From: a bacterium
Lineage (GTDB): Bacteria; Joyebacterota; Joyebacteria; Joyebacterales; Joyebacteraceae
Assembly (NCBI GenBank): GCA_025774935.1
Contig: JALGZK010000016.1
Location: 51,767 to 98,425, forward strand
Direction of reading: 5' to 3'
DNA length: 46,659 bases
How positions within the stretch are numbered: position 1 is the stretch's first letter; every line of letters begins with the position of its first letter. The notes under the pieces were generated by a model. It did no database searches and was not told the origin of the DNA. It saw only the letters and a program-made list of their open reading frames with translations. A program made the position numbers and the translations under genes. Of this stretch, positions 140 to 46,646 are shown piece by piece.

Positions 140-1762
140 ATGAAGAAGCTCACGCTCACGATCACAGCGCTACTCGCCTTCGCCTTGCCTGCGAGCTCCC
201 AGCTCGACGTCCTCGCCACGTGGGACGGCGCGTTCGAGGGGGAGCAGTTCGGGATCGCCGTCGCCATGGGCGGCGACTGGAACGGCGACGGGTACGCGGA
301 CGCGGCGGTCGGCTCGAGCACGAGCGACGAAGGCGGAGCGAACGCCGGCAAGGTGTCGATCTTCCTGGGGCGCCCCGTCGCGCTGTCGACGCCCGACGCT
401 GAGGTCCTCGGGCCGGAGGGAAGCTTCTTCGGGGCGGCGGTCGCGTGGGCCGGCGACGTGGACGACGACGGATACGACGACCTCCTCGTCGGGGCCTACC
501 GCGACACGCAGGCCGGAGCGAACGCCGGGAAGGCGTTTCTCTTCCTGGGAGGGGAGCCGCCGGACACCGAGCCCGACCTCGTGCTCGTCGGTCCCGGTAC
601 AGGCGCCTACTTCGGACGAGCCGTCGCTGGGGCAGGAGACCTGAACGGGGACGGCTTCGCCGACCTCGCGGTCGGCGCCCCGCGCACCGCCAATGGGGAC
701 GTTCACATCTTCCTCGGAGGCGACCCGCCGGACGGCGATGCCGACCTCATCCTCACGGGCGAGGCCGCCGACGACCGGTTCGGCTCATCCGTCGCGGGAG
801 CGGGGAACGCCGACGGCGTTCCGGGTGACGACATCCTGGTTGGCGCGGCCCGCGCCGGGACCGGACGCGTCTGGCAGGGAGCGGCGTATCTCTTCTCCGG
901 AGGCGACGGGATGGACGCAGACCCCGACTGGATCGTCCGAGGCGAGGGTTCAGGCGATCAGCTCGGCACTTCCGTGGCGGCCGCCGGGGACGTGAACGGC
1001 GACGGCGATCCGGACATTCTCGTCGGCGCCCCGTACTGGAACTCGACGGGTGCGCTCGACGCGGGGAGCGCCTACCTCTACTTAGGCGGAGCGCTCCTCG
1101 ACACGACTCCCGACTTCTCGATCGAAGGGACGATCCAGGAGGAGAACGTGGGAAGGAGCGTGGCCGGCTGCGGCGACGTGACCGGGAGCGGGTACGGACA
1201 CATCCTCGCCGGGGCCCCTGGAGGCGGCGACTGGCTGTCGAGACCGGGCAGGGCGTTCCTCTCTCCCGGAGGCGATCCCCCGAACGCGGGCGACACCATC
1301 GAGCTCGTCGGTGAAGCCGACGGCGACCAGTTCGGACACTCCGTGTCCGGGGGCCCGGCCGCGCCATCGTTCGCGGGCGATCCACGTCCTGAAGTCGTCA
1401 TCGGGGCCTGGGCCCACGGCACGACGGGCCAGGCAGCGGCGTACGGACTCGCGGACGGCACGTCGGTCCCCATCGGCGGCAGCTCGTTCGCTCTCTCGCC
1501 GCCCGCCCCGAATCCGGCGACGCTCGGTTCCGTCTTCTCCTTCCAGCTCCCGGTCGCAAGCACGCACATCCGCCTCACGGTGCACGACGTCTCCGGGCGT
1601 CTCGTGAGGGTCCTTGCCAATGGTGTGGTCGGCGCGGGCCGCCACTCCCGCTCCTGGGATCTGACGGACAACGCGGGGAACGCGGTCGCATCCGGCGTCT
1701 ACTTCGCCCACCTGGAGATCGATGGCCTCACCCGGTCCCGCAAGCTCGTCGTCCTCCGCTAG
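140..1762 (+). CDS. Secreted FG-GAP repeat (integrin-alpha-like propeller) protein with FlgD-Ig-type sorting domain
   Basis: 540 residues. A signal peptide (M-K-K then a hydrophobic run to A-L-P-A-S-S) is followed by about seven FG-GAP units spaced roughly 60 residues. Their calcium-binding-like cores read G-D-x-N-G-D-G-x-x-D followed by V-G-A, seen near residues 45, 110, 170, 230, 290, 345 and, degenerate, 415. This predicts a seven-bladed beta-propeller outside the cell. From about residue 450 comes a FlgD-Ig / type-A-like C-terminal domain with D-V-S-G-R-L-V-R, a G-V-Y-F strand and a terminal R-K-L-V-V-L-R. In Bacteroidota-related phyla this domain is cut off during secretion or surface attachment. 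No enzyme motif is seen; ligand unknown. The next gene, a kinase, starts 79 bases downstream. Confidence 0.88.
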   Translation: MKKLTLTITALLAFALPASSQLDVLATWDGAFEGEQFGIAVAMGGDWNGDGYADAAVGSSTSDEGGANAGKVSIFLGRPVALSTPDAEVLGPEGSFFGAAVAWAGDVDDDGYDDLLVGAYRDTQAGANAGKAFLFLGGEPPDTEPDLVLVGPGTGAYFGRAVAGAGDLNGDGFADLAVGAPRTANGDVHIFLGGDPPDGDADLILTGEAADDRFGSSVAGAGNADGVPGDDILVGAARAGTGRVWQGAAYLFSGGDGMDADPDWIVRGEGSGDQLGTSVAAAGDVNGDGDPDILVGAPYWNSTGALDAGSAYLYLGGALLDTTPDFSIEGTIQEENVGRSVAGCGDVTGSGYGHILAGAPGGGDWLSRPGRAFLSPGGDPPNAGDTIELVGEADGDQFGHSVSGGPAAPSFAGDPRPEVVIGAWAHGTTGQAAAYGLADGTSVPIGGSSFALSPPAPNPATLGSVFSFQLPVASTHIRLTVHDVSGRLVRVLANGVVGAGRHSRSWDLTDNAGNAVASGVYFAHLEIDGLTRSRKLVVLR

Positions 1763-4151: not shown

Positions 4152-5324
4152 CTACGGCCGGTACATCGCTTTGATCCCGCCCCACGTCCTGTGCTCGACC
4201 GGCGACGGACCGCTGCAGGTCTCGCCGTTCGCACCCAGGAGCTCGCTCCAGGCGTTGTTGTCGGGCAGACAGGGCGACGACGCATAGAGCCGGAGGTCGC
4301 CGCTCCACATGTCGCAGAAGAGCGGGTCCACGAAGATGTTGTCGGTGTTGTCCCCGCAGAGCGAGTCGCCGCCCGCGTTCCCGTAGATGCAGCTCCTGGT
4401 GATCGAGAGAGAGGCCGCGGGGTCGCAGTAGACCGTCTCACCCGCGAGCTGATATGAGATGACGGAGTTCACCACGTCGAAGTCGGACCCGGCCTCGCAG
4501 TTGAGTGCCGTGCCCTGCGTCGCCGCGTTCAGAGCGAAGGTGCAGTTCGCGATCGTCGCGGTGACGTTCGCCCCGCTGAAGCCCCCGCAGACCGTCCCGG
4601 AGTTCCCACGGAACACGACGTCCGTCAGCGAGTAGGCCGCGTCGAAGGCCGCGAACCCTCCCACGGTCTCGTAAGCGAGGTTCGACTCGAAGACGACGTT
4701 GTTCAGCGTCGCCGGCGCTCCCTCGCACCGCATCCCGGCGCTCAGTGAGGCGGTATTCTGCACGAACCTCACGTCGTCGAGCGAGAGCGTGCTCCCGCCA
4801 CTCGCCATGATCCCCCCGCCTCGGAGTGCGGTGTTCGCTTCGAACGTCACGTTCTCGACGACGAGATCCGAGCCCTCTGCGCAGTTGATTCCACCTCCGC
4901 CGCTGCTCGCCACGTTGCCGTCGAAGGTGCAGTTCCGGACCGTGACACCAGACGCCGCCTCACACCTGATGCCGCCCCCCCGCTGCGTGCCACCGTTCGT
5001 GATCCTGAATCCCTCGACGACAGAGGCGACGGTCTCGCCGCTGTGGAAGTAGAACCCGCGACCGACGTTCTGGCAGTCGATCGTCGTCGCCGCCGGCCCG
5101 GCCTCAGAGACGAGCGCGAGGTTCACACCCCCGAAATCGATGTCGTGGTTGCCCGGCCCGGAGTAGGTGCCCGGCTCCACAAGCACGGTGTCGCCCTCGC
5201 TCGCGCTGCTGACCGCGAGCTGGATCGTGCCGAAGTCGCTCGGTACGCGGATGACTCCTGCGCCCGCCGCGCTGGCAACGATGATGAGGAAGGCGGCCAC
5301 CGTCAGTCCTGTCAGTCTCCTCAT
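4152..5324 (-). CDS. Secreted right-handed parallel beta-helix protein with T-W-G-x-I-K tail
   Basis: 390 residues. The start M-R-R-L-T-G-L was chosen for its signal peptide and a GGAG ribosome site about 10 bases upstream. The mature part has pectate-lyase-fold/polymorphic-outer-membrane-type repeats: I-x-V-P-x-D-F-x-T-I-Q-x-A at the start, then many units like G-G-G-I-x-C and N-C-T-F. A cysteine-rich module near the end (G-D-S-L-C-G, D-N-I-F-V-D-P-L-F-C, S-S-P-C-L-P) is shared with the protein at 27282-29987. Instead of the FlgD-Ig domain of that relative, this protein stops with R-T-W-G-G-I-K-A-M-Y-R-P, a tail shared with the protein at 37686-38222. No catalytic residues are recognised; role probably surface binding or adhesion. 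Confidence 0.85.
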   Translation of the reverse strand: MRRLTGLTVAAFLIIVASAAGAGVIRVPSDFGTIQLAVSSASEGDTVLVEPGTYSGPGNHDIDFGGVNLALVSEAGPAATTIDCQNVGRGFYFHSGETVASVVEGFRITNGGTQRGGGIRCEAASGVTVRNCTFDGNVASSGGGGINCAEGSDLVVENVTFEANTALRGGGIMASGGSTLSLDDVRFVQNTASLSAGMRCEGAPATLNNVVFESNLAYETVGGFAAFDAAYSLTDVVFRGNSGTVCGGFSGANVTATIANCTFALNAATQGTALNCEAGSDFDVVNSVISYQLAGETVYCDPAASLSITRSCIYGNAGGDSLCGDNTDNIFVDPLFCDMWSGDLRLYASSPCLPDNNAWSELLGANGETCSGPSPVEHRTWGGIKAMYRP

Positions 5325-17040: not shown

Positions 17041-19284
17041 ATGAACGGCAGCATCGTGAGAAGACTGACACTGGTATTGCTCGTCGCGGCGCTCGTCGGC
17101 GCCGCGGACGCCCGTGCGGTCGAGATCACCTTCCAGGTCCGCATGTCCTACCAGGTCGTGCTCGGCAACTTCGACCCGAGCGAGGACTTCGTGGACCTCG
17201 CCGGCACGTTCAACGGCTGGGGCTCCGACCCGCTCACGCCCCTGGCCGATGCCGACGGCGACACCATCTACGAGGTCGCGGTCGATGGCTTCGCGCCTTT
17301 CGAGTACATCGAGTACAAGTTCCGTCTGAACGGCCTGTGGGACGGCACGGAGGAGTTCCCGGGGCCCGGCAACAACCGCACGTACACGGTGCCCGACCAC
17401 GACGACACGATACTCGTCTGGTACAACGACCTGGAGCCGGGCGGCGGTGCCGGCGAGGTGCACTGGTGGAACGACCGAGTCTTCTACGAGATCTTCGTGC
17501 GGAGCTTCTATGACAGCGACGGTGACGGGATTGGCGATCTGCAGGGTCTCACCCAGAAGCTCGACTACCTGAACGACGGCGATCCCTCCACCGACGACGA
17601 CCTCGGGATCACGGGGATCTGGCTCATGCCCATCAACCCCTCACCGAGCTACCACGGTTACGACGCCACCGACTACCTCGCAATCGACCCCGACTACGGA
17701 ACGATGGCCGACTTCGAGGCGTTCCTCGCCGCGGCCCACGACCGTGGCATCAAGATCATCATCGACTACGTCATGAACCACTGCTCCAATCAGCACCCGT
17801 GGTTCACGGCCTCGGGCGACAACAGCCCGATCTACCGCGACTGGTTCCGCTGGTCGGCGAGTGATCCGGGACAGACGGGCCCCTGGGGACAGCAGGTGTG
17901 GCACTGGCACCCGTCGGGCTGGTACTACGGCCTGTTCTGGGGCGGCATGCCGGACCTCAACTACGAGACCCAGGCCGTGCAGGACGAGATGTTCGACACG
18001 GCGACGTACTGGCTCGACACAGTCGGCGTCGACGGGTTCCGTCTAGACGCCGTCCTCTACATCATCGAGGAGGGCGACCAGCTCCAGAACACGGCCTCGA
18101 CGTTCCAGTTCTGGCAGGACTACAACGCGCACGTGAAGGCGGTGAAGCCCGACGTGCTCTCGGTCGGCGAAGCGTGGACCTCCACCAGCATCGTACTCCA
18201 GTACGTGACCGACGACCGGCTGGACATCTGCTTCGAGTTCGAATTGGCCGGCTCGACCCTCGGCGCGGCCAGCTGGGCGTACGCCGCCGACGTGAGCAGC
18301 AAGGCCGCCCAGGTCTACGACCTCTACCCGTTCCTCCAATTCGCCACGTTCCTCACCAACCACGACCAGAACCGGGCGTTCAGCGTGCTTGGAGAGGACG
18401 AGGGCAGGGCAAGGACGGCCGCGGGCATCTACCTGACCCTGCCGGGCGTACCGTTCGTCTACTACGGCGAGGAGATCGGTATGATCGGCACCGGGGATCA
18501 CCTGAACATCCGCACGCCGATGCAGTGGACTTCCGATCAGCATGCGGGGTTCACGACCGGCACGCCGTGGCAGCCGGTCAGCTGGAACTACCCGCAGTAC
18601 AACGTTGCCGTGGAGGACACCGACCCGGGGTCGCTACTCAACTGGTACCGGCGGCTCATCACCGTGCGGAACGGGTCGCAGGCCCTCAGGCGCGGAACCC
18701 ACCAGCCGCTGACGAGCTCCGCGCTCGAGGTTCTGGCCTTCGTCCGGCGCGACGAGCAGCAGACCGTCCTCCCGATGATCAACTGCGCGTCGTACGCCTT
18801 GGGGAGCTTCACGCTCACCGGTTCTGCGGCGAGTCTCGAACCGGGCGAGCACGCGCTCGTCAACCTGATGGATCCGAACGACACCCTCAACGTCACGGTC
18901 ACCCCTTCGTATGAGATCGTGGGACTGAGTCTCGAGGGGCACGAGGTAGCGGTCTACGAGTTCGCCGACTCGAGCGGCGTGGACACGGGAGACGACGTGC
19001 CGGAGACCGGCCTGAGGCTCGAGCCAGGCTTCCCCAATCCGTTCGGTCCCTCGACGACCATCAGCTACTCGCTGCCCGCCGAGTCACACGTGCGCCTCGG
19101 CGTCTACAACGTCGCCGGCCGTGAGGTGTCGGTCATCCGCGACGGCGTGCAGGAGGCGGGCCCGCACGATGACAGCTGGGACGGGAGCGACGGCAACGGG
19201 GTCGCGATGAGCGCGGGCGTGTACTTCATTCGCCTGGAAGCCGGCGGCGCAACGAAGACCTCAAAGGTGATGCTCGTGAGGTAG
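17041..19284 (+). CDS. Secreted GH13 alpha-amylase with N-terminal carbohydrate-binding-like domain and FlgD-Ig sorting domain
   Basis: 747 residues. A signal peptide (to A-D-A-R-A) precedes a starch-binding/E-set sandwich (about 28-130, with D-L-A-G-T-F-N-G-W-G). The GH13 barrel has region I I-I-D-Y-V-M-N-H, region II G-F-R-L-D-A-V with nucleophile Asp336, region III V-G-E-A-W with acid/base Glu377, and region IV T-N-H-D-Q-N with Asp442. It should hydrolyse alpha-1,4-glucans outside the cell. The end carries P-G-F-P-N-P-F-G-P-S-T-T-I, N-V-A-G-R-E-V-S-V-I and finishes S-K-V-M-L-V-R, the same sorting-type domain as at 140, 19440 and 27282. TACAAT occurs at 16979-16984 but with no good -35 box. 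The convergent neighbour is also a starch-binding-domain enzyme. Confidence 0.93.
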   Translation: MNGSIVRRLTLVLLVAALVGAADARAVEITFQVRMSYQVVLGNFDPSEDFVDLAGTFNGWGSDPLTPLADADGDTIYEVAVDGFAPFEYIEYKFRLNGLWDGTEEFPGPGNNRTYTVPDHDDTILVWYNDLEPGGGAGEVHWWNDRVFYEIFVRSFYDSDGDGIGDLQGLTQKLDYLNDGDPSTDDDLGITGIWLMPINPSPSYHGYDATDYLAIDPDYGTMADFEAFLAAAHDRGIKIIIDYVMNHCSNQHPWFTASGDNSPIYRDWFRWSASDPGQTGPWGQQVWHWHPSGWYYGLFWGGMPDLNYETQAVQDEMFDTATYWLDTVGVDGFRLDAVLYIIEEGDQLQNTASTFQFWQDYNAHVKAVKPDVLSVGEAWTSTSIVLQYVTDDRLDICFEFELAGSTLGAASWAYAADVSSKAAQVYDLYPFLQFATFLTNHDQNRAFSVLGEDEGRARTAAGIYLTLPGVPFVYYGEEIGMIGTGDHLNIRTPMQWTSDQHAGFTTGTPWQPVSWNYPQYNVAVEDTDPGSLLNWYRRLITVRNGSQALRRGTHQPLTSSALEVLAFVRRDEQQTVLPMINCASYALGSFTLTGSAASLEPGEHALVNLMDPNDTLNVTVTPSYEIVGLSLEGHEVAVYEFADSSGVDTGDDVPETGLRLEPGFPNPFGPSTTISYSLPAESHVRLGVYNVAGREVSVIRDGVQEAGPHDDSWDGSDGNGVAMSAGVYFIRLEAGGATKTSKVMLVR

Positions 19285-19439: not shown

Positions 19440-20975
19440 TCAGCGCACGAGGACCATCCGCCAGGTCGCCTTCCGCGGACCTGCGTGGATGGCTGCCATG
19501 TACACTCCGGAGGGCAGCTCGCGCCCTGCGTCATCCCGGCCGTTCCAGACCACCTCGTGGAATCCCGCCGGCAGACGGTCGTCCAGGAGCCCGCGCACCT
19601 GCCTGCCGGCCACGTCGTAGATCGTCAGACGGACGTCCGCCGGGTCCGGGAGGTCGAACGCGAGCGTCGTTCGAGGATTGAACGGATTGGGCACGCTCGG
19701 GCGCACCGTCAGGGATGAGTGGGCCACGCTCTCGGGGACGCCGGACGCCGGCATCGGAGGGAAGAGGAACTGCAGCGTCACCGGAAAGCGCTGTGCCCAG
19801 TACCACTCGTTGTGCTGGCCGCCCTCGTCCTCGACCACCATCAGGTCCACGTCGAGGACGAACCCCTGCCCGACCATGATGTCGCGCATCGCCCGCAGGT
19901 CGTCGATGTTGTCGTCGATGCCGTTGCCGTCCAGATCCACCATGTACCCGGCCTCGATGGTCCCCATGTCCATGTAGACCTTCGCCGACGGCTTCGGGAA
20001 TCCTCCCGCGTAATCGAGGAGCTCGTGATCGCTCCACCAGAGAGACGGGGACAGGGCACCGATGAGACCGAACACGTCGGAGTGGGCGTAGACGGCATAC
20101 AGGGGCATGAGTCCGCCGAGCGACGAGCCGGCCAGCCCGGTGTTGTGCGGACCCGTGAGCGTTCGGTAGTTGACGTTGACCCAGGGCATCAGGACGTTGA
20201 TGAACGCCTGGAGATGCTCCTCTCCCCCGCCTCCGGCCTGGTAGGTCGGGTCGTACCACGGCGTGTACTCGTGGATCCGGCCCAGGCCGCCGTTGTCCAC
20301 GGCGACAACGATGATGGGTCCCATCAGACCGGCCGGGATGAGTTCCTCGCACGTCTCGTCGACCTCCCACTCCCCCGCGAAGCTCGTGGCCTGGTCGAAC
20401 ACGTTCTGACCGTCGAACATGTAGAGCACGGGGTAGCTGACGTCCGTGCTCACGTGGTAGTCCGGAGGAAGATAGACCCACACGCGGCGCCCGTTCAGGA
20501 ACCCCGGGACCGTGTGCGTCGTCACGTCGCCGGTAATGGTGCTGTTGCCCTGAATGTCCGCCCAGTTGTACACCGTCACCTCGAGCGTCTCGGCGCCGGT
20601 GACGGTGTGGGTCCGGTTGGGGATCTCCTCCCCGTTCGGGCCCTTCTCGACGGTGCTCCAGCTGCCGCGGGTGAACTTGAACTCGATCGAGTTTCCGACG
20701 GTCAGCTCCAGCGTGATCTCGTAGATCAGACCCCCGAGGTCCGTGAGCTGATACGCCGGATCGCCCGGGTTCCAGCCCTGGAAGTCCCCCGCGATGAAGA
20801 CGGGATCGCCCGGAGGGGTGGTCCCGGGCGCGGTGACCCGGAAGGTAACGAGCGCGGTGTCCCGCCCGCTGCCGGGGTCCTCGAGTGCCGGTCGAGCCGC
20901 TGTGGTCGTGGGTAGAACGGAGACGAGAAGCGCCACTAGAAGGACGCAGGCAAGACGCCTCATGCTCGGGTGCAT
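19440..20975 (-). CDS. Secreted CBM20-like/esterase with FlgD-Ig sorting domain
   Basis: 511 residues from ATG 20975 (AGAGGA five bases upstream). A signal peptide is followed by a starch-binding-like domain (V-F-I-A-G-D-F-Q-G-W-N-P-G, V-E-K-G-P-N-G-E-E-I-P-N-R). The esterase domain has V-P-G-F-L-N-G-R-R-V-W-V-Y-L-P-P-D-Y, L-Y-M-F-D-G-Q-N-V-F-D, nucleophile G-S-S-L-G-G (Ser about 285), and a probable His in G-G-Q-H-N-E-W-Y-W. It then carries R-P-S-V-P-N-P-F-N-P-R-T-T-L, D-V-A-G-R-Q-V-R and a final M-V-L-V-R. Same family as 7321-8619; both resemble CE1 esterases with starch-binding-like domains. A much longer frame runs upstream but would cross the divergent promoter region and the phosphoesterase gene on the other strand. 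Confidence 0.88.
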   Translation of the reverse strand: MHPSMRRLACVLLVALLVSVLPTTTAARPALEDPGSGRDTALVTFRVTAPGTTPPGDPVFIAGDFQGWNPGDPAYQLTDLGGLIYEITLELTVGNSIEFKFTRGSWSTVEKGPNGEEIPNRTHTVTGAETLEVTVYNWADIQGNSTITGDVTTHTVPGFLNGRRVWVYLPPDYHVSTDVSYPVLYMFDGQNVFDQATSFAGEWEVDETCEELIPAGLMGPIIVVAVDNGGLGRIHEYTPWYDPTYQAGGGGEEHLQAFINVLMPWVNVNYRTLTGPHNTGLAGSSLGGLMPLYAVYAHSDVFGLIGALSPSLWWSDHELLDYAGGFPKPSAKVYMDMGTIEAGYMVDLDGNGIDDNIDDLRAMRDIMVGQGFVLDVDLMVVEDEGGQHNEWYWAQRFPVTLQFLFPPMPASGVPESVAHSSLTVRPSVPNPFNPRTTLAFDLPDPADVRLTIYDVAGRQVRGLLDDRLPAGFHEVVWNGRDDAGRELPSGVYMAAIHAGPRKATWRMVLVR

Positions 20976-21003
20976 GTGTGTCCTCTCTGGTTGGATGAGA
21001 CGA

Positions 21004-21039
21004 CGACCTCTGTCTACTGCCATTATACCGCAGAGGTCG
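21004..21039 (-). promoter_or_regulatory. TATAAT box enclosed by a 9-bp inverted repeat, esterase promoter/operator
   Basis: CGACCTCTG (21004-21012) and CAGAGGTCG (21031-21039) are perfect inverted arms 18 bases apart. A consensus TATAAT on the minus strand lies between them (21027-21022), about 47 bases before the esterase ATG. The arrangement fits an operator over the -10 region. Confidence 0.55.
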
Positions 21040-21081
21040 CGTCGACTCCAGCGCCACGCTGGGAAGGAGCCGTCAGGCGGT

Positions 21082-21111
21082 TTGACGGCGCGCGGCCGGC
21101 GGCCGTAGAAT
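21082..21111 (+). promoter_or_regulatory. Promoter of the phosphoesterase operon
   Basis: TTGACG (21082-21087), 18-base spacer, TAGAAT (21106-21111), near consensus. The start codon follows about 120 bases later, leaving a long leader with no obvious ribosome site other than weak purines. Confidence 0.65.
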
Positions 21112-21230
21112 CGGGTGTGTGTCCTTCGAGCAAGACCATGAGAAGCGAACGGACTCGCAGCGTCGAGTGACGGCCCGCGGTCCGTCGGGTCACGGCGCTG
21201 GACGCCGCGACGAACCGGGATCAGCTCAGC

Positions 21231-22289
21231 ATGAGCTCTCGTTCCTCCAGTCTTCGGCTGCTGTTCCTCGCCGACACCCACCTCGGGTTCGACCAGCCGG
21301 TTCGTCCGAGGGTCGAGCGGCGCCGTCGCGGCCCGGACTTCCTCGCGAACTTCCGGCGAGCCCTGGCTGACGCCGTCGATCAGCAGATGGATCTCGTGCT
21401 CCACGGTGGCGACCTCTTCTTCCGATCGAAGGTCCCCGCCGCCATCGTGGACCAGATCTATGAAGAGCTCCTCGCGTTCGCCGAACACGGCATCCCGCTC
21501 GTGATCGTCCCCGGGAACCACGAACGTTCCCGCCTTCCGACGTCGCTCTTCCTCCAGCATCCGAACATCCACGTCTTCGGCGGGCCCGAGACACTCCGGT
21601 TCGATCTCGGTGGCGCCCGTGTGGCCCTGTCGGGGTTCCCTTCGGTGCGGGGGAACATCCGCGCCGACTTCGGGCAGCTCGTCGCCGCGACAGGGTGGGA
21701 AGACAGCCCCGCGGACGTCCGACTCCTCTGTCTGCATCAGACGATCGAGGGCGCGACCGTCGGGCCTGCCGGCTACACGTTCCGGAACGGCCACGACGTG
21801 ATCCGGCAGAGGGACCTGCCCCGGGCGTTCCACGCGGTGCTCGCTGGCCACATCCACAGGCACCAGGTCCTGGAGGTCGGGCAGGAAAGGGAGTGTCCTC
21901 TCCCCGTCATCTATCCCGGTTCGACCGAGAGAACATCGTTCACGGAGGCCGACGAGACGAAGGGGTACTGCGAACTCGCCTTCGGGGAGACCTCGGAGGG
22001 AGGCTGGGCGCTCGAGCGAACCGAGTTCGTACCTCTCCCCGCCCGCCCCATGGTCACGGTCGACTTGCCGGCGGAGCTCACGCCGGCGGGGGTCGGCGGG
22101 TTCCTGGACGTCGTAGCTCGGGAGGTTCCACCCGACGCCATCCTCCGATTCATATGTTCCGAGGCGGTATCTCCGGAGACGCGCCGGGCGTTCGGCTCCG
22201 CGCGCCTGGCCGACCGCCTCCCGCCGGAGATGAACTTCCAGTTCGGTACGGGGTTCTTCGGCGATCGTCGCGCGAGGACCGGGACATGA
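21231..22289 (+). CDS. Mre11/SbcD-like calcineurin-fold metallophosphoesterase (DNA repair exonuclease family)
   Basis: 352 residues. All metal-site motifs are visible in order: F-L-A-D-T-H-L-G (Asp15, His17), H-G-G-D-L-F-F, P-G-N-H-E, L-C-L-H-Q and A-G-H-I-H-R-H. After the catalytic domain, a short C-terminal part (P-R-P-M-V-T-V-D onward) resembles the capping region of SbcD/YhaO-type proteins. No SbcC/Rad50 ATPase gene is nearby, unlike classical sbcDC. The stop overlaps the next ATG (A-T-G-A), so expression is coupled to the GIY-YIG nuclease gene. A nuclease role is therefore likely; a cyclic-nucleotide phosphodiesterase would be the alternative. Confidence 0.85.
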   Translation: MSSRSSSLRLLFLADTHLGFDQPVRPRVERRRRGPDFLANFRRALADAVDQQMDLVLHGGDLFFRSKVPAAIVDQIYEELLAFAEHGIPLVIVPGNHERSRLPTSLFLQHPNIHVFGGPETLRFDLGGARVALSGFPSVRGNIRADFGQLVAATGWEDSPADVRLLCLHQTIEGATVGPAGYTFRNGHDVIRQRDLPRAFHAVLAGHIHRHQVLEVGQERECPLPVIYPGSTERTSFTEADETKGYCELAFGETSEGGWALERTEFVPLPARPMVTVDLPAELTPAGVGGFLDVVAREVPPDAILRFICSEAVSPETRRAFGSARLADRLPPEMNFQFGTGFFGDRRARTGT

Positions 22290-27281: not shown

Positions 27282-29987
27282 CTATCTCACCAGCACGATC
27301 TTCGTGGCAGCGCGCTCGCCCGCGACCTCGGCCACACAGAAGTAGACGCCGGCGGCGACCTGTCGCCCCCGTCCGTCTCGCCCGTCCCACACGAACCTGT
27401 GATCGCCGGCTGGCAGCGGCCCGTCCGTGACGCGCCTGATCAGTCGGCCGGCGACATCGTAGACGGCCAGGCTCGCCCTGCCATCGACGGGAACGGTCAG
27501 CGTGAGGATCGAGCGATCTCTCGTCGGGTTCGGTTGCGCGGGATGAAGTGCGAAGAGAGCGTCAGGAGTCCCGTCAATGCCCGTGGCGACACCGCACCCT
27601 CCGGCACCCAGCGCTCCGATCATCTCACCCCACGGGTTCCCGGACGGCAGGCAGGGCGAGTCGTCGTGCAGCGAGACCACGCCCTCCTCCAGCTCGCAGA
27701 AGAGAGGGTCGATGAAGATGTTGTCGTAGTACGAGCCACAGAGGCTGTCGCCCTGCGAGTTCCCGAAGACGCAGCTGCGCGTGATCTCCGGATCGGCCAC
27801 GCCCTGACAGTTGACGGCGAGTCCGGTCGGACTTGCGGCCACGATCGAGTTGGTGATGATCGGCGATGCGTCCGCGGCCGTGATCTGATGGCCCGGGTTG
27901 GAGGCGAACGTGCAGTTCGTCACTGCCGGTGCGGCGCCCGACTTGCAGTAGAGACCGGAGCCCGTGATCGACGTGTTCCCCACTGCGACGATGCCTTCGA
28001 GCATGGGCGAAGCCCCGTCCTCGCAGTAGATGCCGGCACCGAAGAACGATGCGTTGCAGTCGCGCACGACGCAGTTCCTGATCGTCGGTGAGGAGGCGGC
28101 ACTGCATACGATGCCGCCGCCGAAGAAGGTCTCGGCCGCGCCGTTCACGAAGGTAAATCCGTCCACCACGCAGGAGGGACCCTCGCCGTCGTCGAAGACG
28201 AGCGCCGGACCAGCTCCGCCGCAGTCGATGACGGTCTCGGAGCATCCTTCAGGGGCAATCAGGAGGACGGCCTTGCCGCCGAAGTCCAGGGCGTGGTTCA
28301 GAGGCCCGACATACGTTCCTCCGTTGACGAGGACGGTGTCGCCTACTGATGCAGCGTCGAGGCCCTCCTGGATGGAGGCGAAGTGCCCCTCCCCTCCCGC
28401 GTCCACGACGACCGTCGTGACGGGATGCGGCATCTCGACGACGAGCGTACCCTCCGTGCTGCCGCCGACCCAGTCCTGGTAGCTCGGGTAGGACGGGGAG
28501 CTGCCGCCTAAGAGACCTTCGGCGAATGCCCGGACGGTCACGGGCAGGATCCCGGTCACGGCCGTGACCTGCCAAGAGACCAACTCGGGCCCGCTCCCGG
28601 CCATCCAAGGCTCCGGCAGGGGCTTGACGACCTGCTCACCACCTGCGAGCTCGAGCCCCCACGGGAGATCTAGCGTGACGCCGGGAGTGGACACCTCCCC
28701 CATCCCCTCGAAGGGATGTGGACCCGGATACGAGACCGTCGCGGACACGGTGAACGTCTCGCCCGCCGCCACGGTGTCGGGCATCGAGAGGCTCACCTCC
28801 CAGGGGAAGGCGACACCGGCCCAGCGGTCCTGGGTGAACGGCCACCAAGGCGTTATGGGATCGTTCCACATGTCGTCAACGAAGAAGGCCTGATTGAGGT
28901 GGATGTCCGGTCCCATCGTCGGCCAGGGGTCGTGAATGATGAACACGTCCGTGTTGTCGTCGTACCCCTTGAGGAGCTTGTAGTGCCCGGACTGGTGCGT
29001 CTCGTCGAACCACGCGTAGATGAGAAGCGGATGGCCGGAGTAGATGAGCGACTTCAGGTCTTCGTAGCGATCAGGGTAGTGCTCTGGTTCAGACCAGCTG
29101 TTCTCGAACGCGGGGTAGCCGTAGTCGCGCTCGTTGTAGCCGTGCAACAGGGTGTCCTGAACCGCCGTGCTCGTCCGGCTGAAGTGCATGGCCCGCACGT
29201 AGTTCGTGCCAGGGTAACCGTTGTCACCGCCGTTGTCTGACGCGTGTGCGATGTCATCCTTGGGCACGTGCGGCCCGAAGTAGTCGAGTATCATCTCGGT
29301 CGACGTGACGGCGCACGTGGGCCCTATCTGGAAGTAGTGCGTGACGTCCAGGTCCCAGGAGGGCGGAAGGTCGCGCGGAGCACCGCGCGAGGTCGAGCCA
29401 CCCGTCGCGGACGCGACACGTCTCGCGGACGACGACGGTTCGCCTTCGATCTCGAGTCCCGTGACGTCGCCCAACTCGTAGATCGGCAGGAACTGGTCAC
29501 CGATACCCGCCGGACCTTCGCCGGGGATGTACCAGCAGAGCGTCCTGTCTCGCTGGACCGCGCATACCGCGGGTGCGACGCCTTCGGACTCCAGCAAGCG
29601 CGCCGCGAGATCGAGTGCGTCATTCTCCGTGACTGCCCTGGGTCCCACGTGGGCGGGTATCGCTCCGTAGGACTGCCATCTCTCGTCGTCGCCGCGCGTG
29701 ACGGCCAGTGTCACGAACGACCGCGTCCCGTCCCGTTCGAGCTCAACGTAGTAATAGAGGGGCTCGAGATCCGGGTAGCTGTGCACCAGAATCGGCTCGC
29801 CGATGGTAACGACATCTCCAACCCACACAGGGAACGCGCCGGGGGCATCCGGATGTCTCAGCGTGTAGGAGCCGACGTCTCGAGCGAGCTCGAGTGCGGC
29901 GTCGAGCGCGGGTGATTCCGAGGCCTGAAGAGCGGTGGCCACAAGGACAGCGGCCAGCGCGAGGATGAGTACAGCGGAACGTCGCAT
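27282..29987 (-). CDS. Secreted C39-like cysteine peptidase fused to beta-helix and FlgD-Ig sorting domain
   Basis: 901 residues from ATG 29987, with GGGAGGA six bases upstream. Order: signal peptide; an N-terminal region (about 20-215) of unknown fold; a papain-like C39_2 domain (about 220-380) with probable nucleophile in Q-I-G-P-T-C-A-V-T-S and His in S-G-H-Y-K-L-L-K-G-Y-D-D; a middle region with Ig-like strands (F-T-V-S-A-T-V-S-Y); then a right-handed beta-helix with the cysteine-rich ending G-D-S-L-C-G, D-N-I-F-I-D-P-L-F-C, S-P-C-L-P shared with 4152-5324; finally a FlgD-Ig domain ending T-K-I-V-L-V-R. Predicted surface or secreted peptidase with a binding stalk. Confidence 0.85.
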   Translation of the reverse strand: MRRSAVLILALAAVLVATALQASESPALDAALELARDVGSYTLRHPDAPGAFPVWVGDVVTIGEPILVHSYPDLEPLYYYVELERDGTRSFVTLAVTRGDDERWQSYGAIPAHVGPRAVTENDALDLAARLLESEGVAPAVCAVQRDRTLCWYIPGEGPAGIGDQFLPIYELGDVTGLEIEGEPSSSARRVASATGGSTSRGAPRDLPPSWDLDVTHYFQIGPTCAVTSTEMILDYFGPHVPKDDIAHASDNGGDNGYPGTNYVRAMHFSRTSTAVQDTLLHGYNERDYGYPAFENSWSEPEHYPDRYEDLKSLIYSGHPLLIYAWFDETHQSGHYKLLKGYDDNTDVFIIHDPWPTMGPDIHLNQAFFVDDMWNDPITPWWPFTQDRWAGVAFPWEVSLSMPDTVAAGETFTVSATVSYPGPHPFEGMGEVSTPGVTLDLPWGLELAGGEQVVKPLPEPWMAGSGPELVSWQVTAVTGILPVTVRAFAEGLLGGSSPSYPSYQDWVGGSTEGTLVVEMPHPVTTVVVDAGGEGHFASIQEGLDAASVGDTVLVNGGTYVGPLNHALDFGGKAVLLIAPEGCSETVIDCGGAGPALVFDDGEGPSCVVDGFTFVNGAAETFFGGGIVCSAASSPTIRNCVVRDCNASFFGAGIYCEDGASPMLEGIVAVGNTSITGSGLYCKSGAAPAVTNCTFASNPGHQITAADASPIITNSIVAASPTGLAVNCQGVADPEITRSCVFGNSQGDSLCGSYYDNIFIDPLFCELEEGVVSLHDDSPCLPSGNPWGEMIGALGAGGCGVATGIDGTPDALFALHPAQPNPTRDRSILTLTVPVDGRASLAVYDVAGRLIRRVTDGPLPAGDHRFVWDGRDGRGRQVAAGVYFCVAEVAGERAATKIVLVR

Positions 29988-30019
29988 GATGGGTCCTCCC
30001 GTCGTCGCCCGCACTGGCG

Positions 30020-30052
30020 ACTGGTGAAGACGCATAAGGGGGCTTCACCAGT
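30020..30052 (-). promoter_or_regulatory. 10-bp inverted repeat in the peptidase gene leader
   Basis: ACTGGTGAAG (30020-30029) and CTTCACCAGT (30043-30052) are perfect inverted arms around a 13-base spacer, 33-65 bases before ATG 29987. It lies in the leader, so it could be an operator or an RNA hairpin. No T-tract follows. Confidence 0.45.
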
Positions 30053-37685: not shown

Positions 37686-38222
37686 CTACCGGTACGCTGA
37701 CTTGATTCTACCCCAGGTCGTGGACTGGACGGGCGATCCTTCGTACACGTGGAGCGCCACGCCCGTCACGCGCGGACCGGCGGGCATGCCCGGGATGTCC
37801 GTGAGGAGGAAGTAGCCTACGTCGTCCGGTGGATCGTGGAGGCCAGTGACAACGAGCGCTCCGTCACCAATGCAGTGGTAGTGGCTCTTCGCGTCCAAGT
37901 GGTTGGTCGTCGATGCCGCAGGGTCATCGATGTAGTGGAAGCCCTGGACGATGGAGCAGTCCAGGTCAGCCGTGTAGCCTGCGTAGCCTGCATTGAAGAA
38001 CATCCTCTCCGCCTCTGAGTCTATCGCCAACTCCCCAAGATCGTTGTCCTCGTGCAGCAGCTCAGGCTCCGACCCGTCGGGGTTGCACCGCCAGATCTGG
38101 GAGGCTGGTCCGCCTCCGATCTCGACAGCGAAGTACACCTTCACCGCGTCCCTAGATGTACCTGACGCGAGCAGACACAGCGCCATCACCAGAAGCACGA
38201 TCACCAGCGCAATCCTGCGCAT
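37686..38222 (-). CDS. Secreted propeller-fragment-like protein with T-W-G-x-I-K tail
   Basis: 178 residues; a GGAGGTGA ribosome site lies six bases before the ATG. The signal peptide is M-R-R-I-A-L-V-I-V-L-L-V-M-A-L-C-L-L-A. The body has YWTD/TolB-like phrases (V-Y-F-A-V-E-I, Q-I-W-R-C-N-P-D-G-S-E-P-E-L-L, G-E-L-A-I-D-S-E-A-E-R-M-F-F), but it is too short for a full propeller, so it may be a one- or two-blade remnant or a distinct small protein. It ends S-T-T-W-G-R-I-K-S-A-Y-R, matching the tail of 4152-5324. Function unknown. Confidence 0.75.
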   Translation of the reverse strand: MRRIALVIVLLVMALCLLASGTSRDAVKVYFAVEIGGGPASQIWRCNPDGSEPELLHEDNDLGELAIDSEAERMFFNAGYAGYTADLDCSIVQGFHYIDDPAASTTNHLDAKSHYHCIGDGALVVTGLHDPPDDVGYFLLTDIPGMPAGPRVTGVALHVYEGSPVQSTTWGRIKSAYR

Positions 38223-40954: not shown

Positions 40955-43765
40955 CTACTTCGATGCCGGCGCGATGCCGTTGAGCGTTTCGTCCCAGTTG
41001 TCGACGACGATGAGTTCGGTTATCGGCGGAGCTTCAACGGCTTCGGCAGCTTCACGCGCCTCTTTGTCCTCTTTGATCATGAGGAAGCGTTGCCCGTCGG
41101 GCGAAATCTCGTAGGGTCTATTCGCGGTAAACGTCAAGTACTCGCCGCCGAACAGCTCTTCGGAGTCTCCTACCGCAAAGTCAGGCTCCGTTTCTATCCT
41201 CACCGCCGTCATCTGCCCGGAGTAAGACCAGTAGTAAAGCTCCCGGCCATCCGGCGCCCAAACGGGATACTCTCCTCCCCGGGTCGAGATCAGCCACTTC
41301 CCGTCATCGATATTGGGGAAAGGCCGGATGTAGACATTGTGCCCACCGGGTGTCGTGATTTCATGGGTCTCGTAGGCGATCCAGCGTCCGTCTGGAGAGA
41401 TCGCCGGACGTAGTTCATCGTAACTCTCCGCCATGAGCGGGCGGGCGGTGGGTTCACCATCGAGCGAAAGCTCCCAGATGTCCGAGTTTCTGGCCGAAGA
41501 ACCCGGAGCCCTTACCAGGTGAAAGATCAGGGATTTGCCGTCTGCCGACCACGTGTGAGCCAGAAGAGGATTCCCGCTCACATGCAGGGTGTCAACGGGA
41601 CCGGTTCCATTCGCCGCCATCGACGACAGATGGAACGCACCACGGTCCCGCACGGAACCAAAAACTACCCGCTGGCCGTCGGGTGTCCACACCGGAGAAA
41701 TGGCGCCTCGCTGCTCGTAGGTGAGTCGCTGTTGGGTGACGGGTTCACGCGTCAGGTCGAGGATCCAAATGTCCGTCCGGTCAAAGGAGTCCAGCGGGTC
41801 ATCGAAACGGACGGCTACGTGTGTGCCGTCGGGTGACAGATCGACTCCAAGGTAAGGGCGTGGTGGCGCATGTATGGGTTCCTCGTTTCCCTCTCGGTCG
41901 ACCCAGACCAGTGTGCGCGCCATGGGAACTTCGGGCGGGTCTTCAGAGCCAGGAACGTAGACCAGAGTGCCGTCGGCCGACAAGCTCCAGAGTATCGGGA
42001 CATTGAACGGCGGCGGCCACGATTCCATGTTTGCTTCCGTTACGGGAATGGCGGGGCCCGTTATTTCGAGGGCGCCGGGGTTGAAGGGCGCAGCCATCAG
42101 CGCCTGTTCCTGCAGATAGATGAGGTGGCCGGTTGGGTGGTAGGTAGCACCTAGCGCCCCGTCCACCAAGAACTTCACGTCTCCGGTCTCCAGGGTGAAT
42201 GCGGCAATTCGGGCTTCATCCATGGAGAAACCGGCTATGGCCGTGAAGAGCACGCTCCTTCCGCCAGGCAGGAGACTAGGGGCTGCGACCCCTATAGATC
42301 CATGGGATTCCATGAAGGACTCATCCATGAGACTCTCGACGGGACCGCCGGCAGCGGAAATACGCTTCAACCCTTGTCTCATTCTCGATGAAAACACGAT
42401 GTGCCCATCGCTCCCCCAACTCGCACCCAGGTCGGCTGATATATCACACAGAGTGACGGGTGCGCCACCCTGGACGGACACCTTCTTCAGCTTGTCCTGG
42501 GTGAAGAATCCAATCCCCTGACTGTCGGGGGAGAAGAAGACTGAGACGGCGTCTTCGGTTCCGGCGATGGGCCGGGCGTCGTCGAGTTGGTCCAGCCGAC
42601 GCAGGAAGAGCTGCTGTTGATTTGGCCCCGTATCCGCGACATAGACGAGGAGCAGGCCGTCCGGCGAAAGGGCTATGCCCGTACCCAAGCCACGCGCGTC
42701 CATGGGCTGGAGCGGGGCGTCATCACTGAGGTTGATGGAGTAGCGGCGGATCGGTTCGGGCTGGGTGACTGGCGAGGGTTTGAGGTTCCAGACGACGAGG
42801 CTTGCCAACCCCACGCCGACGATAAGCGTCGCGATGACCGCGGCAGTAAGCCGTCCTCGGCTGATCTCGGGCTCATCCAGAGTCGAACCCAACGCCGGGA
42901 CGGCTCCCGAGGGATCCGAAGAGGTTTCACTGAGTTCAAATCGCGCCTCTCCGATATCGCGCAGCCGCCGTTGGGGGTCCTTCTGCAAACACCGCCAGAG
43001 GAGAATCCTGATGCGCGCGGGCGTCTCTTTAGGCAAGGCGTTCCAGTCGGGTTCTCGTTCAATGATCTGCACGATCAGATCCGTAGCCGTTTCGCCCGTG
43101 AATGGACGCATTCCTGTCAGCGCTTCGTAGAGACAGCAACCGAAGGCCCAGATGTCCGTGCGGCGATCGATGGTCTTGCCGCGCGCCTGCTCCGGGCTCA
43201 TGTAAGCTGCGGTTCCCAGGATGGTCCCGGCCTGGGTCATGGCTGAGGTGACGGTTGGGCTGTCTTCGAGATCCCGGGCGTCGGCGCTCTCAGGGGCGAA
43301 GGCCCGCGCGAGTCCGAAGTCCAGGATCTTCACCTTGCCGTCGGGTCCGATCATGATGTTCGCGGGCTTCAGATCCCGATGGACGATGTTCTTTTCGTGA
43401 GCCTCCTCGAGTCCCGCGGCAAGCTGCGACGCCAGCGAGAGGGCATCTTCCAAAGGGAGCGGCCCCTTCGCGAGTCGCACGGAGAGGTCCTCGCCTTCGG
43501 CCAACTCCATCACGAGGAAGCTCTGGTCGTCGGCCTGCTCCAGACCGAAGATCGAAGCCACGTTTGGATGGTGGAGAGAGGCCAGGGTGCGGGCTTCACG
43601 TTCGAAGCGAGCGACCCGCTCGTGGTCGTGGCTGAACTCGCTGGGGATGGTCTTGATGGCCACGGCGCGGCCAAGCCTGGTATCGAGGGCGCGATAGACT
43701 TCGCCCATGCCACCGGCGCCGATCTTCTCGAGAATCTCGTAGTGTGCGAGCATCTTGCCGATCAC
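40955..43765 (-). CDS. Membrane Ser/Thr kinase with TolB/PD40 beta-propeller
   Basis: 936 residues from a GTG start (43765) with CGGAGGG upstream. The kinase domain has G-A-G-G-M-G-E-V, V-A-I-K-T, H-R-D-L-K-P-A-N and D-F-G-L-A-R. A single helix (about 305-328, V-I-A-T-L-I-V-G-V-G-L-A-S-L-V-V-W) is followed by an extracytoplasmic propeller of PD40/WD-like blades (G-I-A-L-S-P-D-G-L-L-L-V-Y, F-S-P-D-S-Q-G-I-G-F-F, V-S-P-V-W-T-P-D-G-Q-R-V-V-F-type units). Its family type, with E-V-Y-R-A-L-D, differs from the M-I-G-x-T-I-S-H-Y-R group. The gene is flanked on both sides by transposase relics (40787 and 43991), and its codon use looks less GC-biased, suggesting acquisition by transfer. Confidence 0.9.
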   Translation of the reverse strand: MIGKMLAHYEILEKIGAGGMGEVYRALDTRLGRAVAIKTIPSEFSHDHERVARFEREARTLASLHHPNVASIFGLEQADDQSFLVMELAEGEDLSVRLAKGPLPLEDALSLASQLAAGLEEAHEKNIVHRDLKPANIMIGPDGKVKILDFGLARAFAPESADARDLEDSPTVTSAMTQAGTILGTAAYMSPEQARGKTIDRRTDIWAFGCCLYEALTGMRPFTGETATDLIVQIIEREPDWNALPKETPARIRILLWRCLQKDPQRRLRDIGEARFELSETSSDPSGAVPALGSTLDEPEISRGRLTAAVIATLIVGVGLASLVVWNLKPSPVTQPEPIRRYSINLSDDAPLQPMDARGLGTGIALSPDGLLLVYVADTGPNQQQLFLRRLDQLDDARPIAGTEDAVSVFFSPDSQGIGFFTQDKLKKVSVQGGAPVTLCDISADLGASWGSDGHIVFSSRMRQGLKRISAAGGPVESLMDESFMESHGSIGVAAPSLLPGGRSVLFTAIAGFSMDEARIAAFTLETGDVKFLVDGALGATYHPTGHLIYLQEQALMAAPFNPGALEITGPAIPVTEANMESWPPPFNVPILWSLSADGTLVYVPGSEDPPEVPMARTLVWVDREGNEEPIHAPPRPYLGVDLSPDGTHVAVRFDDPLDSFDRTDIWILDLTREPVTQQRLTYEQRGAISPVWTPDGQRVVFGSVRDRGAFHLSSMAANGTGPVDTLHVSGNPLLAHTWSADGKSLIFHLVRAPGSSARNSDIWELSLDGEPTARPLMAESYDELRPAISPDGRWIAYETHEITTPGGHNVYIRPFPNIDDGKWLISTRGGEYPVWAPDGRELYYWSYSGQMTAVRIETEPDFAVGDSEELFGGEYLTFTANRPYEISPDGQRFLMIKEDKEAREAAEAVEAPPITELIVVDNWDETLNGIAPASK

Positions 43766-44453: not shown

Positions 44454-46646
44454 CTACCGTCCGCGGGCCAATCCCTCCAGGAACGGTCTGGAGATCTTGT
44501 AGGGATGCCCCTTCCACAAAACGTCCCCCTCATGCAACGCCACGGCAGCCGGCCATCCGCCGAGTCCCAGGTCCTTGAAGACCTCGCCGTCGTAGACGGC
44601 ACTAGGGAAACCAAGGTTGTTTCGCTCGACGAACGACTCGGCGTCGTCTTCGCCCGAGCCGTGGCTGAGCGATGTCATTCCGATCACCTGGAGAGGGGAA
44701 TCGTCCTTCCTAAGCAGACCATTGATCTCAGAGATGTACAGCTGAGAAAAGGGACACCAGCTTTCCCAGAAGAACAAGAGGGTTGGAGCCTCCGGCTGGA
44801 GTGCGTGACCCTCCATCAGCCAGTTCTTGATGCCCAGACGTTCCAGGGAGAGAGGGAGGGTCTCCTCGTAGAGAGAGCTGGCGTCGTCGAACCTGCCCAT
44901 GGAGACATACGCGCCTGCCAGATCTGTCAGAGCATCGGCCTCCTCGTCGGTTCCTGATCCCGAAACCCGGCAGGCCATCGCCACCAGCTCAAGCCGGTCC
45001 GACAGAGCCTCCTCGGATCTGCCCTGTAGCTGTCGAATCCAGGCCTGAAGGGAGAGCGCCGAACTTGTCTCCAGATCGTCGTCCCCAAACTGCGCCCTGA
45101 AATGCTCCAACGCCTCCGTGTTGAGCGCTTCGGCCTCGGACAGCTTGCCTCTGTCGGCCAGGACACGCGCCAGGTCGTGACGGGCTCCCATGATTCCGTC
45201 GATATCAGGCTCGTCGGATCTCTCTCGGATCTCCAGGGCCTCTCTGCGCATGGCCTCGGCCCGCTCAAGATCGAATCCGACGCCGAAGTGGGACGCGGTA
45301 TCTTCAATCAACGAGAGTGTTCGGGGATCGTCCTCGCCATACAGCTCACGCTGAAGGCGCAGGGCTTCGTTGAAGTGCTCTTCAGCCAGGGCGGCGAACT
45401 CCCTGGCCTCAGCCTCCCCTTTGAACATGGTCAGGAGATTGTACTTCTGGGCGAGACTGCTGCGGACTTCAGCTTCAACCTCGGGTTGATCGGCGAACCT
45501 CTCCTCTATGTTGTCCGCAAATGTCTCGAGCAGATGTGAGACCGGCACCGTATCTCCCCACATGTCTCCAATGGAATCCATAACATCCTGCAGGTAGTTC
45601 TGAGCTCCCTGCGCCTTGGCTTCCAGCTCGTATGCTTGGATCTGATAGTTGCGGCTCCGGAAGTAGAGCGCCGAGCTCACAATCGCGCCGGCCACCAGGA
45701 CCGCGACCACTGCCGAAGCTGCGGCCAGAAACCCCCTGTTTCGCCGGGCAAAGACGCGAAGCTGGTAGACTGAGCTTGCCGGGCGAGCGGTGATGGCGTC
45801 TCCTGCCAGGTATCGGCATACATCCTGACCCAGCTCCGCGGCCGACTGGTAGCGCCGGTCCCGGTCCTTCTCCAGGGCCTTGAGCACGATGGTCTCGAGG
45901 TCGCCTCGAAGCTTGGGGTTGACTTTGCTGGGGGGGTCCGGAGTCTGGTCACGGATCACCCGAGTCGCTTCAAAGACAGGGACCTGACGCAAGTCGTAGG
46001 GCAGACGCCCGCAGAGAAGCTCGTAGAGTACGATCCCCAAGGAATACACGTCGCTTCGGGTGTCGATATCGAGAGGGTCGGCCTCACACTGCTCCGGGCT
46101 CATGTATTGGACCGTGCCCACCAGCTGGCCAACATCGGTCTGGTGCTGCGTGAGCGCCATATCGGAGTCGGTGGCCCGCGCCACGCCGAAGTCGATGACT
46201 CGGGGACTGCCGCTGGAGCCTACCAGGATGTTCCCCGGCTTCAGGTCCCGGTGGACGATTCCCCTCTGGTGGCCGTGGTGAACCGCGTCACAGACCTGCG
46301 AGAAGAGCTTCAGGCGCTCGCGGATTCCGAGGTCTTTGTCCCGGGCGTATTGGATGATGTCCTTCGCGTTGGGGATGTACTCCATGGCGAAGAAGGGGAC
46401 GGAGCAACCCCCTTCACGATGTGTCCCGGCTTCGTAGATCTGGGCGATCCCGGGGTGCCGCAGACGCCCCAAGAGCTGCGCCTCGAACTCGAAGCGCCGC
46501 AGCTCCGCAGCGGTGTTGACCCCCGCCTTCATGACCTTGACCGCCACCGTGCGACGTGGGCTCTCCTGGACCGCCTTGAACACCGTACCCATGCCCCCGG
46601 TAGCGATGACGCCTTGGAGCGTGTAGTGGCCGATTCTCTGGGGCAT
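44454..46646 (-). CDS. Membrane Ser/Thr kinase fused to TPR and a C-terminal thioredoxin-like domain
   Basis: 730 residues; GGAGG lies 4-5 bases before the ATG. The kinase (about 8-280) has A-T-G-G-M-G-T-V-F-K, V-A-V-K-V-M-K, H-R-D-L-K-P-G-N and D-F-G-V-A-R. A transmembrane helix lies near 302-325 (A-S-A-V-V-A-V-L-V-A-G-A-I-V-S-S-A-L-Y-F). TPR-type helices run about 340-600. The last ~115 residues form a TlpA/thioredoxin-like domain: L-L-F-F-W-E-S-W-C-P-F-S-Q-L-Y with Cys631 and Ser634, G-F-P-S-A-V-Y-D, and the cis-Pro-like G-G-W-P-A-A-V-A-L. The C-x-x-S form lacks the resolving cysteine, so it is monothiol-like. Topology puts TPR and thioredoxin parts outside the cytoplasm. PknB-type kinases with TPR are common; this C-terminal fusion I do not recognise. 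Confidence 0.9.
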   Translation of the reverse strand: MPQRIGHYTLQGVIATGGMGTVFKAVQESPRRTVAVKVMKAGVNTAAELRRFEFEAQLLGRLRHPGIAQIYEAGTHREGGCSVPFFAMEYIPNAKDIIQYARDKDLGIRERLKLFSQVCDAVHHGHQRGIVHRDLKPGNILVGSSGSPRVIDFGVARATDSDMALTQHQTDVGQLVGTVQYMSPEQCEADPLDIDTRSDVYSLGIVLYELLCGRLPYDLRQVPVFEATRVIRDQTPDPPSKVNPKLRGDLETIVLKALEKDRDRRYQSAAELGQDVCRYLAGDAITARPASSVYQLRVFARRNRGFLAAASAVVAVLVAGAIVSSALYFRSRNYQIQAYELEAKAQGAQNYLQDVMDSIGDMWGDTVPVSHLLETFADNIEERFADQPEVEAEVRSSLAQKYNLLTMFKGEAEAREFAALAEEHFNEALRLQRELYGEDDPRTLSLIEDTASHFGVGFDLERAEAMRREALEIRERSDEPDIDGIMGARHDLARVLADRGKLSEAEALNTEALEHFRAQFGDDDLETSSALSLQAWIRQLQGRSEEALSDRLELVAMACRVSGSGTDEEADALTDLAGAYVSMGRFDDASSLYEETLPLSLERLGIKNWLMEGHALQPEAPTLLFFWESWCPFSQLYISEINGLLRKDDSPLQVIGMTSLSHGSGEDDAESFVERNNLGFPSAVYDGEVFKDLGLGGWPAAVALHEGDVLWKGHPYKISRPFLEGLARGR

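Follow-up and report, generated by a model that had tools for sequence, protein, structure and literature searches.

Why do two secreted proteins with unrelated bodies end in the same few residues? The question arises in a window of 46,659 nucleotides (the whole stretch of DNA analysed), where the initial annotation had noticed a common C-terminal tail on the products of two genes, both of which do read as claimed, on the minus strand. The first product, P0001, is an exported right-handed beta-helix protein of 390 residues (4152..5324; sequence and AlphaFold2 model), with the signal peptide MRRLTGLTVAAFLIIVASAAGA (5259..5324; sequence and hydropathy heuristic) and the C-terminus ...SPVEHRTWGGIKAMYRP ahead of the stop, within which the tag is SPVEHRTWGGIKAMYR followed by P (4155..4208; sequence and AlphaFold2 model). 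The second, P0002, is a small exported protein of 178 residues (37686..38222; read from the sequence), with the signal peptide MRRIALVIVLLVMALCLLASG (38160..38222; sequence and the same kind of heuristic) and the tag SPVQSTTWGRIKSAYR, directly followed by the stop (37689..37736). The interval 4152-4215, originally given for the shared feature, spans only the tail of P0001 and not both proteins. A six-frame search of the whole window found no WGxxK beyond these two tails.

The AlphaFold2 model of P0001 has a confident beta-helix with the tail beyond the fold, modelled as a short helix (380-387) within a C-terminal segment, residue 365 onwards, whose pLDDT is below 50. A tail protein of another family (L110) gives a similar picture, with a confident body, a low-confidence linker and a short helix (175-182), again with pLDDT below 50. 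The models thus support a tail lying outside the protein fold; the helix itself is not established, because pLDDT is low there. Elsewhere in the window, 40955-43765 and 44454-46646 encode two large PknB-like Ser/Thr kinases with additional C-terminal regions, that of 40955-43765 being a TolB-like propeller.

A conserved C-terminus in the host genome

We searched the genome from which the window comes (3.24 Mb, 96% complete, 40 contigs) with the back-translated pattern WGx[IVLM]Kxx[YF]R, using the reversed pattern as a control, and obtained 80 matches against 0. Among 81 open reading frames (ORFs) carrying the motif, the final Arg is the exact end of the protein in 71, and one extra residue follows it in 5. 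The consensus, [ST]-P-V-E-x-[AST]-[TS]-W-G-x-I-K-[AGS]-[LM]-[YF]-R-COOH, is longer than the block first proposed. W, G, K and R are invariant in 76/76 C-terminal tails, with Lys at -4 and Arg at 0, residues that the search pattern already demanded; free scoring applies to the P-V-E block, T/S, I, A/G/S and L. The genome also has a WS variant of the tail. With a position-specific matrix, 83 of 5,145 C-termini score above 12 bits compared to 6 of 732,196 internal windows; the matrix was built from these same tails, so that the C-terminal count is not independent of it while the internal count is. In four of the six internal windows the match is the tail itself, followed by further residues ahead of the stop.

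Chance, or recent duplication of one DNA segment, as the origin of the two tails of the window has nothing in its favour beyond those two cases. The 80 matches against none in the control, the spread over many phyla described below and the tail DNA itself, in which 78 of 80 strings are distinct, refute this explanation, to which we give practically no credence. Gly, Tyr and Arg codons are mixed and synonymous variation is free, and it is therefore the protein that is conserved, with no DNA repeat.

The bodies of the tail proteins, with signal and tail removed, fall into 41 BLAST clusters, the largest of which (14 members) consists of beta-helices, which bears out the view that unrelated proteins share the tail. 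Export is equally well borne out: a signal-peptide-like segment is found at a start in 73 of 81 motif ORFs by the hydropathy heuristic, and a stricter heuristic identifies one in 52 of 56 tail proteins compared to 68 of 228 other genes on the same stretches, a comparison set that itself contains exported proteins. Hence the tail does not occur equally in cytosolic proteins, which was one of the two outcomes named beforehand as speaking against a sorting signal. Scans of 72 tail proteins with Pfam and NCBIfam placed no family on the tail, and assigned the bodies to beta-helix, InhA-like MAM, CBM20, cohesin, PKD, lamin-tail, plastocyanin and pectate lyase families, as well as to choice_anch_V, choice_anch_J and the MYXO-CTERM-associated MXAN_6652 family. 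The last three names denote families whose anchors differ between lineages, as predicted for bodies that carry an interchangeable sorting signal. The proposal that this conserved extreme C-terminus is a sorting signal is thus supported by unrelated exported bodies and by the concentration of high scores at C-termini, and we consider it very likely to be right. Literature searches on the motif, and on short sorting signals of the phyla concerned, returned no description, and the tail looks like an export tag without prior description.

Occurrence in other phyla

The other adverse outcome was restriction of the motif to the two genes of the window. The scan of the whole genome and of related phyla that the initial annotation had proposed places it far beyond them, with the 80 matches above, copies in 20/20 genomes of the phylum and further copies in many other phyla. 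Within the phylum of the window (20 genomes from one family and 8 genera), each genome has 16-70 copies, stop included, and the control has 0. A broader scan of 84,980 species genomes with the exact pattern, in which absence elsewhere is not proven, gave at least 114 stretches. Record titles among the matches listed include Eisenbacteria, Krumholzibacteriota, Latescibacterota, Poribacteria, Cloacimonadota, Zixibacteria, Coatesbacteria, Aegiribacteria (Fermentibacterota), WOR-3, Effluviviaceae and one MAG named Gemmatimonadota. There are real copies of the tail in Eisenbacteria, Krumholzibacteriota, Latescibacterota, Poribacteria, Coatesbacteria, Fermentibacterota, WOR-3 and Cloacimonadota, and probably also in Zixibacteria, where the match is a 22-residue ORF truncated at a contig end, its body lying outside the contig. 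Tails from outside the window's phylum retain the core [ST]WGx[IV]Kxx[YF]R but mostly lack PVE. Among the matches listed, 87 of 97 complete long ORFs begin with a signal-peptide-like segment. Four matches, in Syntrophaceae, Cellulosilyticum, Treponema and Arthrospira, were rejected since they do not correspond to credible genes. Viral contigs gave 13 motif matches, near a rough estimate of chance; in three contigs of the viral collection (L092, L097 and L098), ORFs combine a signal-peptide-like start with the tail, and a few of the viral matches look like real tail genes, perhaps on host DNA.

Copy number varies widely. Fifty genomes from the broad scan carry 1-64 copies each, with 0 in the control, and in the phylum of one of them (G051) at least one copy is found in 78 of 80 genomes, with a total of 2 for the control. 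In Cloacimonadota, 16 of 118 genomes have exactly one copy, and in 14 of these 16 it belongs to a single orthologous exported family of ~240 residues, whose bodies are roughly 31-74% identical and whose tail is kept. This family (L266-L280) is a possible core substrate in that phylum. We also looked for one core substrate conserved among the genomes that have one or two copies; in the phylum of G051 the bodies are diverse.

Type IX secretion and other C-terminal signals

The initial annotation had drawn an analogy to PEP-CTERM and type IX signals, and expected a membrane enzyme that co-occurs with the tail. The type IX secretion system (T9SS) fits and, judged by co-occurrence, is the best match for that enzyme, with SprA, PorV and PorU all present. 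SprA is found in 17 of 20 genomes of the window's phylum, in 13/13 good genomes, and in 0/14 control genomes. Outside the phylum, the Pfam model matches in 27 of 39 tail-bearing genomes, and a profile made from eight SprA orthologues adds five more (G032, G048, G053, G056 and G064); by both searches, 29 of 32 genomes outside the phylum with two or more tails have SprA. Neither the model nor the profile found a convincing SprA in the tail-bearing MAGs G022, G034 and G049, which probably reflects incomplete genomes. Two Cloacimonadota genomes (G031 and G050) were set aside as examples of a tail without SprA, an assembly gap being probably the likelier cause because about 110 of 118 genomes of that phylum have SprA. 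The PorV family is present in 20/20 phylum genomes with 9-19 copies each (15 in the host genome), and PorU scores above the NCBI cut-off in 15/20, adjoining PorV on one contig of the host genome (G000:C22). Given that SprA is nearly universal in these phyla, however, its co-occurrence with the tail is compatible with shared ancestry as well as with a causal link.

Gene neighbourhoods gave some further observations. SprA genes of several phyla (L228, L231, L234, L235, L237 and L238) adjoin lptF/lptG-like and rimP-nusA-infB-like genes (in L228 Pfam confirms NusA; the remaining assignments were made by eye). In the phylum genomes several PorV-family genes adjoin large FlgD-Ig proteins, and a PorV gene of the host (G000:C27:8901-9731) is divergent to the gene of a tail protein with a lipoprotein-like start (L077).

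A more specific link is the either/or use of the tail and of FlgD-Ig domains, which resemble the type A C-terminal domains (CTDs) of T9SS substrates. Within the window, P0001 carries the tail, whereas its beta-helix homologue at 27282..30035 (minus strand; homology and domain search) has no tail and ends in an FlgD-Ig domain (27285..27533, minus strand; end ...ATKIVLVR), for which TIGR04183 gives E=1.3e-4 and 21.8 bits (cut-off 23). Further FlgD-Ig domains close the proteins at 140-1762 (1508..1759, plus strand; ...RKLVVLR), 17041-19284 (19033..19281, plus strand; ...SKVMLVR) and 19440-21863 (19443..19691, minus strand; ...WRMVLVR). In the host genome as a whole, complete homologues of P0001 end in the WG tail (12), the WS variant (2) or FlgD-Ig (7); four further matches, being partial or out of frame, are not in this tally. 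The tail is absent from all 49 FlgD-Ig ORFs of the host genome. This alternation on homologous bodies, together with the large PorV expansion, leads us to favour T9SS.

The tail resembles the type A CTD (TIGR04183 / PF18962, FlgD_ig-like) in its place at the extreme C-terminus of otherwise unrelated Sec-exported proteins, in its basic end residue with an important Lys nearby, and in occurring in the same genomes and on the same beta-helix bodies. Nearly all FlgD-Ig domains of the host have [RK] as their very last residue, with Lys usually at -5 compared to -4 (with Arg at 0) in the tail, a likeness of position alone that does not imply homology. Type A CTDs depend on their last 13 residues and on the lysines of motif E, and for HBP35 the last 22 residues are enough for export of GFP (PMC10202324); a nearly invariant Lys close to the end of the CTD contacts PorV (PMC10994853). 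However, the type A CTD is a beta-sandwich of ~70-80 residues with motifs A-E, while the tail is linear, ~10-16 residues long and without such a domain; the type A models of Pfam and NCBIfam cover no tail, and AlphaFold2 gives a disordered linker and one short helix. We count against T9SS that a type A domain closes with a beta-strand, unlike the short helix predicted here. The shortest CTDs described, 40-51 residues in Prevotella intermedia, are likewise reduced T9SS signals that occur beside long CTDs in one genome, but they are three-stranded and keep motifs B, D and E, whereas the tail is far shorter and reads W-G-x-I-K-x-x-[YF]-R (PMC11969387). Distinct CTD types rely on dedicated shuttles, PorP/SprF in the case of type B (PMC12618676), and one outer-membrane shuttle per signal class would suit the 9-19 PorV paralogues, though the type B CTD is a domain of ~100 residues or more and the tail a linear ~10-16.

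Other known signals fit less well. PEP-CTERM, GlyGly-CTERM/rhombosortase and MYXO-CTERM are, like the tail, short C-terminal signatures on many exported proteins per genome, but there the signature is followed by a transmembrane helix and a basic end. The tail has no hydrophobic stretch, as after W-G just x-I-K-x-L-Y-R leads to the end, and the PEP-CTERM half of the proposed analogy fails because a transmembrane helix is lacking. Nor does the tail sequence have the LPXTG-like motif, transmembrane helix and basic end of sortase (LPXTG) substrates. What is known of T9SS substrates, a Sec signal peptide and a conserved C-terminal signal on unrelated cargo, is found in the tail proteins, in a phylum that encodes SprA, PorV and PorU.

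Candidate readers of the tail

The tail could instead have a receptor or protease of its own that has so far escaped recognition, with T9SS unconnected and merely shared by the same lineages. There would then be a separate sorting or secretion pathway in several candidate phyla, parallel to T9SS, with its own receptor and a ten-residue linear tag. The invariance of W, G, K and R, albeit demanded by the pattern, would suit a specific protein partner, as would a tail that in AlphaFold2 models is not a folded domain. No Bacteroidota title occurs among the matches listed from the broad scan although Bacteroidota, the model group for T9SS, have that system, and T9SS alone is therefore not sufficient. 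However, the neighbourhoods of tail genes in general yielded no candidate enzyme, and the alternation with FlgD-Ig on homologous bodies and the PorV expansion are against T9SS being unconnected. Such a receptor seems to us doubtful, and the parallel pathway that would come with it equally so. A non-enzymatic role is more improbable still: as an amphipathic C-terminal helix, the tail might bind the outer membrane, LPS or an S-layer and so retain periplasmic or surface proteins, which would agree with the predicted short helices (175-182 and 380-387) and with the aromatic and basic residues. Membrane-binding helices, though, keep their amphipathic character rather than identical residues, and the tail has four invariant residues and finishes exactly at the carboxylate.

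A third proposal, compatible with a T9SS reader and more specific, is that a second C25 (PorU-like) protease of the phylum processes the tail as a side branch of T9SS. This paralogue, with a propeptide and FlgD-Ig, is found in most of the 20 phylum genomes, and in four genera (G000, G006, G010 and G014) there are arrays of tail proteins a few kb away from it; at four loci (L322:2250-5996, L323, L325 and L327) a cytochrome c554-type protein is adjacent and arrays of tail paralogues are near. Yet it adjoins one family of tail proteins (paralogues of L056/L110) and not tail genes in general, and could itself be a cargo protease, which makes the proposal an unlikely one. Near tail genes in several places (L329, L330, L331 and L332) there are also C25-like peptidase genes with FlgD-Ig ends.

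We thus prefer to see the tail as a short linear C-terminal sorting signal for the outer membrane with T9SS as its likely reader, an explanation to which, taken whole, we assign a probability of about 0.62; that T9SS reads the tail, which we infer from co-occurrence and either/or use, is probable, less so than that the tail is a sorting signal. Tail proteins would cross the inner membrane by Sec and an N-terminal signal peptide, and be recognised in the periplasm or at the outer membrane through the ~10 residues at their very end, [ST]-W-G-x-I-K-x-[LM]-[YF]-R, a segment whose C-terminal carboxylate is free and which is held by a flexible linker. The reader would most likely be T9SS, with the SprA translocon and a PorV-family shuttle, and PorU might cut in the linker ahead of the tail. 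The tail would in this way do in 10-16 residues the job of a folded type A domain, and its proteins would reach the cell surface. Both the identity of the PorV-family shuttle that would read the tail and the cleavage of the tail are matters that we infer.

If correct, these results add to the known C-terminal sorting signals a class that escapes annotation pipelines, and the tail offers a means of listing the surface proteome in largely uncultured candidate phyla. Should T9SS be the reader, the minimal T9SS signal would be a linear peptide of 10-16 residues with no folded domain, which would bear directly on cargo recognition by PorV-family shuttles and make candidates for signal-specific shuttles of the 9-19 PorV paralogues in each genome.
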